Part shown: positions 17,315 to 64,000 of the stretch, in pieces | Layout of the letters: every line of letters begins with the position of its first letter | Numbering within the stretch: the stretch's first letter is position 1 | From: Halorussus sp. MSC15.2 | GTDB taxonomy: Archaea; Halobacteriota; Halobacteria; Halobacteriales; Haladaptataceae | Assembly: GCF_010747475.1 (NCBI RefSeq) | Contig: NZ_VSLZ01000003.1 | Location: forward strand, 496,001-560,000 | Direction of reading: 5' to 3' | DNA: 64,000 nt | Notes under the pieces: generated by a model | Told to the model about the DNA's origin: nothing | The model's input: only the letters and a program-made list of their open reading frames with translations | The model's database searches: none | Program-made: the position numbers and the translations under genes

Positions 17315-18219
17315 TCAGTCGAGCGAATCACGAACGCCGACGATGTCGAGAATTTCGCGGAGGTCGTCCACCCGGTAATCGACCGCCGGACCGTCCTCGG
17401 CCCCGTAGGCGACGGTCGCAAGTCCGACGTCCTTCGCGCCCGCCACGTCGTGCTCGTACCGGTCGCCTATCATGAGCGCCTCGTCCGCCGCGACGTCGGC
17501 CTCCCGCAGGGCGGTCTCGAACATCCGGCGTCGGGCTTGGTTCGCCCGACCATCTCGGAGGTCGTAATCGAGTCGAACCGGTCGCGGACGCCGAACGTCT
17601 CCAGAATCCGCAGTCCCTCCTCGGTGTCCACGTCGCTGACGACGCCGACGTGGCGGTCGCTGTCGGCCAGTCGCTCGATTGCCTCGACCGCACCGGGTTC
17701 GGGCCGCAGGGTCTCGGTCGTCACCGCCTCGAAGAGCGGGAGCCACTCGTCTTCGGGCACCGCCTCGCCGACGATTTCGGCCACGGCGCGGTCGTAGCCG
17801 GTCCGCGCAGACCGGAACTCCGTCCCCTCGCGCTCCCGGAAGTACGACCCGACCGCGGCCCGCCACGTCGCTATCGCGTCCTCGTGAGCCTGCGAACGAG
17901 AGTTCGTAGGGCCGTGTCCTGCGGCGTCGTCGTGAGCCTGCGAACGAGGGTTCGTAGGGCCGTGTCCTCCGGCGTCGTCGTGAGCCTGCGAACGAGGGTT
18001 CGTAGGGCCGTGTCCTCCGGCGTCGTCGTGAGCCTGCGAACGAGGGTTCGTAGGGCCGTGTCCTCCGGCGTCGTCGGGCGAGCGCTCGGGGACGTACTCC
18101 TCGACCAGTCTCTCGACGAACGCCTCGTGGGCGCGCCGGACGGACTCGGGGTCGAGAATGACGCCGCCGATGTCCCAGAACACCGCCCGGTAGTCCGCCG
18201 TCGGTTCGTCGCCCGACAC
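17315..18219 (-). pseudogene. HAD-family hydrolase with four 16-aa repeats and a single-base frameshift
   Basis: From the ATG at 18219 the protein opens with motif I variant AVFWDIGGVILD. It then carries residues 49-112 as four copies of DDAGGHGPTNPRSQAH, resumes the cap helices (FREREGTEFRSARTGYDRAV) and reaches motif II VVSDVDT and the motif III lysine in MVGRTKPDA. One missing base near 17525-17530 then shifts the frame. The other frame continues MFETALREADVAADEALMIGDRYEHDVAGAKDVG (motif IV) to the stop at 17315. Restored length is about 301 residues, or about 237 without the repeats, a normal HAD size. Substrate unknown. Confidence 0.85.
17884..18075. repeat. Four tandem 48-bp palindromic coding repeats in the HAD gene
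   Basis: Exact 48-nt units start at 17884, 17932, 17980 and 18028 on the plus strand with GTGAGCCTGCGAACGAGGGT. Only the first unit differs, by two bases. Each unit holds a stem-loop, GCGAAC-GAGG-GTTCGT, and a second imperfect one with loop CGT (AGGGC-CGT-GTCCT). On the coding (minus) strand a unit reads as 16 amino acids in frame. There are no spacers, so it is not a CRISPR. The same motif occurs in the histidine kinase gene at 62.2-62.4 kb. Confidence 0.97.
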
Positions 18220-61970: not shown

Positions 61971-64000
61971 TTACGTGACGTTCCGGAACTCGAACCGCGC
62001 ACCGCCCTCGTCGCTCTCGGTGACGGCGCAGTCCCACTCGTAAATCTCGGCGAGTTTCTGGACGAACGCCAGTCCCAATCCCATCCCGCCGTTGCTGGCC
62101 GCCGACGTGTACCCCTCCTCGAACACGGCGTTCTTGTCGTCGTCGGGGATACCGGAACCGTCGTCCGCGACGTAGAATCCTGTCGGGAGTTCGCCGACGG
62201 TAACGGTGACGTCCGCGCCTCCGTGCTCGACGGCGTCCTCAGAACGCTGCGCGTTCTGATGGGCTGCATCAGACTCCGTCTGATGAACGTCATCGTCCCG
62301 AGGACGATTGCCCGTGGAGCCGTGCTCCACGGCGTCTTCGTGAGCCTGCGAGCGAGGACTCGTCGAACCGTGTTCGGCGGCGTTATCGTCCTGCGGACGA
62401 TTGCCAGTGGAGCCATGCTCCACGGCGTTCTCGAAGAGATTCCGGAACAGGTGTTGTACGTACGTCTCGTCGGCCTCTATCGTGGAGTCGATGGCTACCT
62501 CCGAGGTCGCTCCGCGAGTGTCTATGTCGTCCCAGACATCGCGCGCGACGGTCCCGAGGTCGACAGCGCTGTGTTCACCGACCGCGTCGCGACCCCGGGT
62601 CAGCATCAGCATCACGTCGATGATGTCCTCGATGCGGTCGAACGCCTCGGTGATGTAGCCGACGGCCTCGGCGTTCCCGTCAGCCGGGAGCTGCTGGCCG
62701 TATATCTGGCCGATGTTGACCGGGTTCCGAAGTTCGTGGGCGAGCATGCTGGCGAAGTTCTCCAACCGCGCGTTCTTCTCTTCGAGTTGCACCTCGCGGT
62801 GGTTCCGGTTGAGTTCGTAGCTCACGCACTGGCCCATCAAATCGAGGAACGTCCGCTCGGCGTCCGTGTACGCCCGGTCTCGCGGCATCTCGGACGCGAA
62901 GCACAGCGTCCCGTACTCGTCGCCGCCGACCTCCACGGTCGTCGCGAAGTACGCGTCCAGTCCGAACCGTTCGTACGCGGCGTCGTCCGTCCACCCCTCC
63001 TCGGCGGCGTCCGTCACCGAAACCGCCCCGGACGAAGCGAGCAACTTCTCGCAGTAGGTGTCACACAGCGAGTCAGTGACACCCGACTGTATCAGGTCGT
63101 GGTCGCCAATCGCTTCCACGATTTCGAACGTGTCGTCGTCGTTCGTTCGGGTGAAGTACCCGATGTCGAAGTCGAAACGCTCGCTCCCCAGTTCGAGCAG
63201 GTTCTCGACCTTGTCTCCGAACGACACCCGTGGGTCTGCGATGATATCGTACAGTTCACGCTGGTACTGTTCGTGCTCTTTGCGCTCGGTGATGTCGCGG
63301 ACGATAGCGAGCATCAGCTCCCGGTCGTCGAGTTCGATAGTCGACGCCGATATCTCCGCCGGAATCGCCCGGCCGTCCTTAGTCAGACACGACAGTTCGT
63401 CCGTCCAGCCGTGGCCGTTCGCGAACACGCCGTCGACGAACGCCCGGAATCGGCCCATCTCGTCGGGGTGGCAGTCGGACGGGCCGCGCGCCAGCAACTC
63501 CTCGCGCTCGTAGCCGAGCATCTCCAGTCCGGCGGGGTTCGCGTCGACGATTTCGTCGCCGAAGGGGTCGTTGACGAAGATGGCGTCGTTGCTGTTCTCG
63601 AACACCGCCTCGAACTGGTCTTTCGCCCGCCGAAGCTCTCGCTCGCGGTGCTGGCGTTCGAGTTCGTACTCTACCCACTGGCCCATCAGGCGGTGGAACG
63701 TGCGCTCCGCCTCCGAGAACTCGCTCTCACGCGGTTCGGTCGAGACGAACCAAAACGTCCGGTCGTCGGTCCCGTCGAGCGTGAGGTACGTGCCGAGGTA
63801 CGTCCGGACGCCGAACTGTTCGTAGCAGCGTTTACCTTCGAACCCCTCGCCGACGGGGTCGGTGACCGCGACCGGGTCGGCGATTGCATCTCTCGAATTG
63901 AAGTCGGTGGTGACCTCGCAGTAGGTCTCCGAGAGGTCGGCGTTCGCTCCGGGGACGAGGAAGTCGTGGTCGTCGCTGACCGCCTCGACTTCGAAGAAGT
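61971..64000 (-). CDS. GAF-PAS-GAF sensor histidine kinase with palindromic repeat insertion, 5' end outside window
   Basis: This kinase is open from the window edge to the stop at 61971, about 676 codons visible. The N-terminal piece (YCEVTTDFN, GVRTYLGTYL...SEFSEAERTFHRLMGQWVEYEL) is a GAF domain, then a PAS domain (FEAVFENSNDAIFVNDPFGDEIVDANPAGLEML...ITERKEHE) and a second GAF (YFATTVEVGGDEYGTLCFASE). The kinase core has H-box MLAHELRNPVN, N-box NLFENAVEHG and G-box VADDGSGIPDD...GGMGLGLAFVQKLAEIY. About 60 residues of HGSTSPRSQAH-type repeats are inserted right after the N-box. The signal and response regulator are unknown. Confidence 0.93.
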   Translation of the reverse strand, partial: FFEVEAVSDDHDFLVPGANADLSETYCEVTTDFNSRDAIADPVAVTDPVGEGFEGKRCYEQFGVRTYLGTYLTLDGTDDRTFWFVSTEPRESEFSEAERTFHRLMGQWVEYELERQHRERELRRAKDQFEAVFENSNDAIFVNDPFGDEIVDANPAGLEMLGYEREELLARGPSDCHPDEMGRFRAFVDGVFANGHGWTDELSCLTKDGRAIPAEISASTIELDDRELMLAIVRDITERKEHEQYQRELYDIIADPRVSFGDKVENLLELGSERFDFDIGYFTRTNDDDTFEIVEAIGDHDLIQSGVTDSLCDTYCEKLLASSGAVSVTDAAEEGWTDDAAYERFGLDAYFATTVEVGGDEYGTLCFASEMPRDRAYTDAERTFLDLMGQCVSYELNRNHREVQLEEKNARLENFASMLAHELRNPVNIGQIYGQQLPADGNAEAVGYITEAFDRIEDIIDVMLMLTRGRDAVGEHSAVDLGTVARDVWDDIDTRGATSEVAIDSTIEADETYVQHLFRNLFENAVEHGSTGNRPQDDNAAEHGSTSPRSQAHEDAVEHGSTGNRPRDDDVHQTESDAAHQNAQRSEDAVEHGGADVTVTVGELPTGFYVADDGSGIPDDDKNAVFEEGYTSAASNGGMGLGLAFVQKLAEIYEWDCAVTESDEGGARFEFRNVT
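62239..62423. repeat. Array of palindromic coding hairpins in the histidine kinase gene
   Basis: Perfect short palindromes with 3-nt loops occur in a row. They are TCAGAACGC-TGC-GCGTTCTGA (62239-62259), CATCAGAC-TCC-GTCTGATG (62267-62285), ATCGTCC-CGA-GGACGAT (62292-62308), CCGTGGAGC-CGT-GCTCCACGG (62312-62332), CGAAC-CGT-GTTCG (62364-62376), ATCGTCC-TGC-GGACGAT (62385-62401) and GTGGAGC-CAT-GCTCCAC (62407-62423). A GCGAGC-GAGG-ACTCGT hairpin equivalent to that of the HAD repeats lies near 62348-62363. They are in frame and encode HGSTGNRP-, HGSTSPRSQAH- and similar peptides on the minus strand. Confidence 0.95.

Follow-up and report, generated by a model that had tools for sequence, protein, structure and literature searches.

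A 48-bp two-hairpin coding unit found in frame in histidine kinases and unrelated genes of Halobacteria

Results

Two genes of the window carry the same 48-bp unit

Within the window, a 64,000-bp stretch of a Halorussus genome, a HAD-like hydrolase gene and a histidine kinase (HK) gene contain copies of one element, a 48-bp (16-codon) unit with the usual reading frame VEHGSTSPxSQAxxDA. The original prediction of four 48-bp units in the HAD gene and a related copy in the kinase gene was confirmed, with exact units on the minus strand and the HK copy at 62331-62378. Its 11-residue core, HGxTxPRSQAH, is indeed a shared motif, but the true unit extends over the full 16 codons. The features are listed below.

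17470-18219, minus strand: HAD-like hydrolase ORF with four tandem units (ORF call, Pfam, aligned orthologues)
18019-18066, minus strand: HAD unit 1 (GGHGPTNPRSQAHDDA), preceded by a target-side GACGCC
17971-18018, minus strand: HAD unit 2, identical in sequence to unit 1
17923-17970, minus strand: HAD unit 3, identical in sequence to unit 1
17875-17922, minus strand: HAD unit 4 (AGHGPTNSRSQAHEDA), of the four the nearest to the lone unit in the G391 orthologue
61971-63686, minus strand: HK ORF with Pfam PAS, HisKA and HATPase_c domains
62232-62423, minus strand: larger repeat-rich insert around the HK unit (from sequence)
62407-62423, minus strand: hairpin A formed by native N-box codons and insert, GTGGAGC-ATG-GCTCCAC (from sequence)
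62385-62401, minus strand: second-type module, a perfect 7-bp triloop hairpin, ATCGTCC-GCA-GGACGAT, encoding NRPQDD (from sequence)
62331-62378, minus strand: HK unit (AEHGSTSPRSQAHEDA), left junction AACGCC, right end GACGCC
62364-62376, minus strand: hairpin A of the HK unit, CGAAC-ACG-GTTCG (from sequence and covariation)
62314-62330, minus strand: hairpin A of the next VEHGST block, GTGGAGC-ACG-GCTCCAC (from sequence)
62292-62308, minus strand: second-type module ATCGTCC-TCG-GGACGAT, encoding NRPRDD (from sequence)
62267-62285, minus strand: second-type module CATCAGAC-GGA-GTCTGATG, encoding HQTESD (from sequence)
62239-62259, minus strand: second-type module TCAGAACGC-GCA-GCGTTCTGA, encoding HQNAQRSED (from sequence)

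The HAD ORF matches Pfam Hydrolase (5.8e-9) and HAD_2, and its tandem array spans 17876-18076 with a 48-bp period, 4.2 copies and 98% matches. In the 4.4-Mb assembly, the 13-mer CGCAGGCTCACGA has five exact occurrences, all of them in the HAD and HK units of the window; a reversed control gave 0. The canonical fold is largely lost in the three inner HAD copies (DNA fold z = 0.0), so we rejected a stable fold for them and regard the HAD gene as a poor place to view the structure of the element. At 17522-17538 on the minus strand, the gene reads KPDAGCSRPP... and then a stop where orthologues have KPDRRMFETALREAD, leaving its 3' end out of frame relative to them. The pattern suggests a 1-nt deletion, which would be a true frameshift or else an error of assembly; if it is genuine, the gene with four units may be decaying.

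In the kinase, the insert comes directly after the N-box NLFENAVEHG, and the Pfam HATPase_c alignment begins only past it (residues 485-568, profile from position 17). A unit occupies the same position in four further kinases of this genome. The insert as a whole combines the 48-bp unit with further modules that are perfect triloop hairpins, every one of them in frame, and compensatory versions, such as TCAGAACGC/GCGTTCTGA and TCAGAAATC/GATTTCTGA, occur in relatives. The EPSVADAPED module was rejected as a hairpin, as no stem of at least 6 bp was present in its 11 copies.

Both hairpins covary at the DNA level

The consensus of the unit is 5'-GNNGARC-NNN-GYTCNNC-GAGC-CCTNNN-TCGCANRCTC-NNNAGG-ACGCC-3', which contains hairpin A (7 bp with a 3-nt loop) and hairpin B (6 bp with a 10-nt loop). 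RNAalifold returned the same two hairpins when no structure was supplied. Across 168 distinct 27-nt cores, the nested stem pairs 6-23, 7-22, 8-21 and 9-20 were the top four covarying of 351 column pairs; for three of them, none of 200 tree simulations reached the observed value, the exception being 6-23. Of the stem cells in 110 full units, whose selection did not require pairing, 94% were paired. Both sides had changed in 263 stem cells of these units, compared with 104 after shuffling and at most 24 in slid controls, although the copies are related, so that this and the other covariation and codon counts do not represent independent events, and the tree simulations and slid controls address kinship only partly. 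Among frame-blind matches, in which stem bases were unconstrained, 31 of 50 triplets were fully complementary against 4.9 expected.

The hairpin with the ACG loop in the original prediction is thus real and covaries. The other hairpin it proposed, ACGAAC-CCTC-GTTCGC, showed no covariation in the 110 units above that after shuffling (83.1% versus 82.6% paired); the real second stem, CCTNNN...NNNAGG, lies further 3'. An alternative GAGC/GCTC pairing is not needed, since AGC is often found together with ACT.

Pairing in the stems is mirrored by the encoded amino acids, which occur in combinations such as SPRS..HED, SPDS..RQD, SPAS..QQD and SPPS..QED. When synonymous codons were resampled, 3.47 of 6 stem pairs formed, versus 5.41 observed, and a full stem arose in 0.3% of cases versus 58% observed; shuffling synonymous codons within columns gave 4.56 pairs. 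Silent changes in AVEHGST carry the same signal. The third bases of Val and Ser pair in 47 of 65 distinct sequences (24.7 expected) and those of Glu and Gly in 49 of 65 (30.8 expected), and two control combinations of AVEHGST that are unpaired in the structure gave no signal. The third base of loop codon 6 is T in 103 of 106 Ala codons (GCT) and 44 of 46 Thr codons, against a background of about 6% in the same genes. Both stems therefore covary, and in loop and spacer it is the DNA sequence itself that is conserved. The covariation surpasses tree simulations, shuffles, and slid and synonymous-codon controls, in support of the original suggestion of selection on a hairpin or spread of a mini-element. 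It also carries a warning: residues that covary in these inserts mirror the pairing of the DNA and not contacts in the protein.

The conserved loop bases suggest which strand folds. T10 C11 and T18 C19 are all retained in 156 of 168 cores. They would form weak T-C mismatches on the coding strand and GA/GA, a tandem sheared G-A arrangement, on its complement. Imperfect stem pairs include 36 G-T on the complement versus 11 on the coding strand. Judged from these sequence features, the folded strand would be the complement of the coding strand, which speaks against a role in mRNA.

These data bear on the possibility that selection acts on protein or RNA function, with the peptide serving as a useful linker or the hairpins acting in mRNA. 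Such an explanation would account for the strong frame bias toward VEHGSTSPxSQAxxDA, the recurrent position beside the HK N-box and the long retention in some families. We nevertheless consider it improbable: stem amino acids vary freely (R with HE, D with RQ, A with QQ) while DNA pairing is kept, loop bases stay the same at synonymous sites or where the amino acid changes, imperfect pairs favor G-T on the noncoding strand rather than G-U in mRNA, and an antisense copy of the element exists.

The unit is widespread in Halobacteria and occurs in unrelated genes

A two-unit protein query matched 184 of 391 Halobacteria genomes and 52 of 86 genera, with the unit mostly in HKs, just past the N-box. 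A 26-nt hairpin pattern with at most 3 mismatches gave 24 matches in 18 congeneric genomes and 0 for the control. When 84,980 bacterial and archaeal species were scanned for an exact pattern, only Halobacteria matched (12 stretches). A strict pattern, which required Ser-Pro and no G as the first base of the next codon, proved too narrow (1 match in 391 genomes). A frame-agnostic DNA pattern, in which CCT, the loop and AGGAC were fixed, stem bases were free and the usual kinase Val codon was excluded, produced about 80 matches versus 2 for the reversed control. Together, these proteome and DNA searches make plain that the phenomenon is much larger than the window alone reveals.

Kinases account for about 23 of the 73 distinct copies examined in context. 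The non-kinase hosts include glutamyl-tRNA synthetase (GluRS; tRNA-synt_1c), a rhodanese/metallo-beta-lactamase (MBL) protein, Cgi121, a corrin methylase, MutL, an AMP-binding enzyme, an AI-2E transporter, an alpha/beta hydrolase, an old-yellow-enzyme relative and a VLRF1-type release factor. More than 15 unrelated gene contexts carry copies, in either orientation. One match (L271) looks like chance, and a small number are in ORFs that are short or doubtful (L246, L264, L284, L287).

The single confirmed intergenic copy is in Halogranum rubrum (L110/L255), amid a chain of other hairpins. At 4230-4360 of L110, perfect short-loop hairpins follow the unit copy, and the chain is flanked by a glycoside-hydrolase-like ORF and a PhoD-like ORF. 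Mosaics of hairpins between haloarchaeal genes may be members of one wider family with the 48-bp unit.

Two genomes of one genus, G179 and G243, show a burst of insertions into many non-kinase genes, frequently in the form of degenerate arrays (L119, L124, L127, L132, L138, L142, L144, L283-L297). This genus is a good place to seek an active mobilizer. Viral contigs gave no exact-pattern match and phages no tblastn match, and we rejected carriage by viruses or phages. Plasmids yielded one Natrinema PAS protein and one weak, unconvincing Comamonadaceae match. In the 64-kb window, Rfam at gathering score reported only a tRNA and no match for the element.

Orthologues differ by exact 48-bp steps

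Comparison of orthologues revealed clean 48-bp gains at the HAD, GluRS, MBL and beta-helix sites. The number of units is 0, 1 or 4 in HAD, 0 or 1 in GluRS, 0 or 1 at each of two sites in MBL, and 0 or 1, reversed, in the beta-helix gene. For HAD, G394 and G384 have no unit, G391 has one and the window genome has four. G391 and G394 differ by 48 bp, with the flanks CGAGGACGC, and the G391 locus matches locus L114 of Halorussus aquaticus. The GluRS site is empty in G339 and G032 (NAAEYDE, NAEEYDE) and filled in the congeneric G163 and G263 (e.g., NAVEPGSTSPDSQARQDAEEHDD). The MBL protein has 402 residues in most genomes and 418 with a unit at one of the two sites; G059 has units at both. Compared with L330, L335 and L339, one empty MBL site, L332 of G041, reads DAAEL, as in the left flank of filled sites, and not the commoner DADDL. 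From its sequence, the G041 site is possibly a footprint of precise unit loss. In the NosD-like beta-helix gene, the unit is reversed (GVLVSARTRAG...) in G000, G391, G394 and G398, and about 16 codons are absent in other congeners. This antisense copy means that the inherited unit is DNA and not peptide.

The copies thus lie in unrelated genes with empty sites in relatives, and the condition that the original prediction named as refuting it, all copies in orthologues of one ancestral protein, does not hold. Replication slippage within HKs, with chance resemblance elsewhere, would explain the obvious tandem growth and the fact that HK N-box repeats make up most copies. It is very improbable as the whole explanation, because unrelated genes hold units with the same loop, boundaries and length at sites that are empty in relatives, and because the frame-blind search gave about 80 matches versus 2. 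The empty GluRS, MBL and beta-helix sites already contradict it.

The junctions are fixed and lack a target-site duplication

The left junction is AACGCC, which is retained, in GluRS, TACGCC at MBL site 2 and AACGCC in kinases; the corresponding right junctions are GACGCC, GACGCC or GACGCG, and GACGCC. Over 224 units, the first base of the left NACGCC varies (G, A, T or C), and the right sequence begins with GAC or GAT in all. This difference in the first base argues against a target-site duplication, which we rejected because A or T of the target is preserved on the left and the right copy has G.

All five documented empty sites read NACGC[CG]/GNNGA (the slash marks the junction) in at least one unfilled relative, compared with 54 of 319 background in-frame sites at which NACGCC continues as GNNGA. 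With this continuation, the target resembles the head-to-tail junction of an array, GACGCC/GNGGA. In host genes, 47% of ACGCCG sites are in the sense Asp/Asn-Ala frame and 30% are in one antisense open frame. Despite this 30%, only one antisense carrier gene was found. The scarcity of antisense and intergenic copies implies that insertion is biased or that selection on the peptide is strong, and the frame bias is in keeping with a flexible, acidic peptide being tolerated.

The junctions fit IS200/IS605-type insertion 3' of a fixed short target without duplication, and homology-driven insertion fits them too. The main rival to homology-based spread is a non-autonomous single-stranded DNA (ssDNA) transposon, mobilized by a putative trans-acting Y1 transposase (an HUH/Y1 enzyme of IS200/IS605 type) that would recognize the hairpins and insert the unit 3' of ACGCC. 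Consistent with such a transposon are the hairpins at both ends, the short target 5' of the insert, the target-like right end, the missing target-site duplication and the apparent use of one strand. In addition, haloarchaea are rich in IS605-type elements and derived palindrome-associated elements (PMC3119063). We consider this explanation unlikely, given that the hairpins lie directly at the ends, the likeness to the target extends over about 10 nt, the viral and phage collections hold no copy, and copies are overwhelmingly in frame within coding DNA.

Discussion

Exact 48-bp steps, a fixed junction, both orientations, tandem growth and a hairpin constraint characterize the unit. We interpret it as a haloarchaeal palindromic coding element that arose at the HK N-box, spreads by a hairpin-linked or short-homology process, expands by 48-bp slippage and has its stems maintained, a reading to which we assign a probability of about 0.6.

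An origin in HKs would follow from the 5' end of the element (GCCGTSGARCACGG), which is the native N-box Ala-Val-Glu-His-Gly. Single units may then have spread by hairpin-provoked template switching or short-homology recombination between array junctions and chance ACGCCGNNGA sites; these targets would correspond to Asp/Asn-Ala-x-Glu/Asp codons, common in acidic haloarchaeal proteins. Arrays would grow by 48-bp slippage, and stem pairing could be kept up by fold-back correction, a hairpin-requiring factor, or both. Units may persist because 48 bp preserves the frame and because an acidic, flexible 16-residue peptide is tolerated in surface loops.

Short-homology template switching with fold-back repair, an alternative that needs no dedicated enzyme, accounts for a large part of the data. 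For the conserved loop bases, pure template switching alone is not a sufficient explanation. In the three testable non-HK cases of a nearest-donor comparison, HK units of the same genome were not the closest. Some non-HK copies, as in the MBL and GluRS families, may be old and vertically inherited, so independent insertions would be fewer than copies. A more far-reaching proposal, which we advance tentatively and hold somewhat short of even odds, is an undescribed class of archaeal elements in conserved genes. The 48-bp two-hairpin unit of HK N-box origin would be recognized as folded ssDNA and inserted at ACGCCGNNGA in either orientation, and a wider family of perfect triloop hairpins (GTCGGCC-GGA-GGCCGAC and others) would occupy the same slot.

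The element accounts for the insert beside the N-box of many haloarchaeal HKs. It is common across an archaeal class, some species of which are genetically tractable, and it combines empty sites in relatives with a defined junction and strong covariation within coding DNA. It offers a natural test of DNA structure dictating protein sequence and of the need for an enzyme.

Comparison with known systems

In-frame palindromic elements are known mainly from Rickettsia. We found no haloarchaeal precedent by text or sequence motif in the open-access literature, which is weak evidence of absence as it covers open-access work only.

The original prediction likened the element to Rickettsia palindromic elements (RPEs), a likeness that holds for behavior and fails for length and host. 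RPEs are described, in the summary given by PMC10969869, as short palindromic DNA in frame in many unrelated genes, encoding a tolerated peptide. The haloarchaeal unit likewise is a palindromic insert, present or absent in orthologues (HAD, GluRS, MBL at two sites, beta-helix) and in frame in unrelated genes. RPEs are about 150 bp long and known from Rickettsia, whereas this unit is 48 bp, archaeal and, in our scan, restricted to Halobacteria; it is also tandemly repeatable and has two hairpins and a defined ACGCC junction. The element works like an RPE, and we liken the two by behavior alone and do not claim membership.

PARCELs, too, are in-frame tandem repeats whose DNA is palindromic and which are thought to pass from gene to gene (PMC2996958). 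Their repeats are amphipathic, 25 residues long and found in ORFs of no assigned function, often membrane targeted (PMC2996958), whereas the haloarchaeal unit is hydrophilic, has 16 residues and occurs singly or in tandem in conserved enzymes. REPs share short imperfect hairpins and many copies. According to PMC3733652, they are extragenic, 20-40 bp long and mostly bear a GTAG or CGTC tag; the haloarchaeal units are almost all intragenic and in frame. Unlike MITEs, the unit has two separate palindromes in place of terminal inverted repeats, and no target-site duplication. PATEs and other IS605-type elements are haloarchaeal, small and palindromic near their ends, and the available portion of their description (PMC3119063) mentions no in-frame insertion into conserved genes; the unit differs further in its 48-bp length and tandem arrays. 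By these comparisons, RPEs and PARCELs are the closest systems in behavior, and the IS605-derived PATEs the closest haloarchaeal elements.
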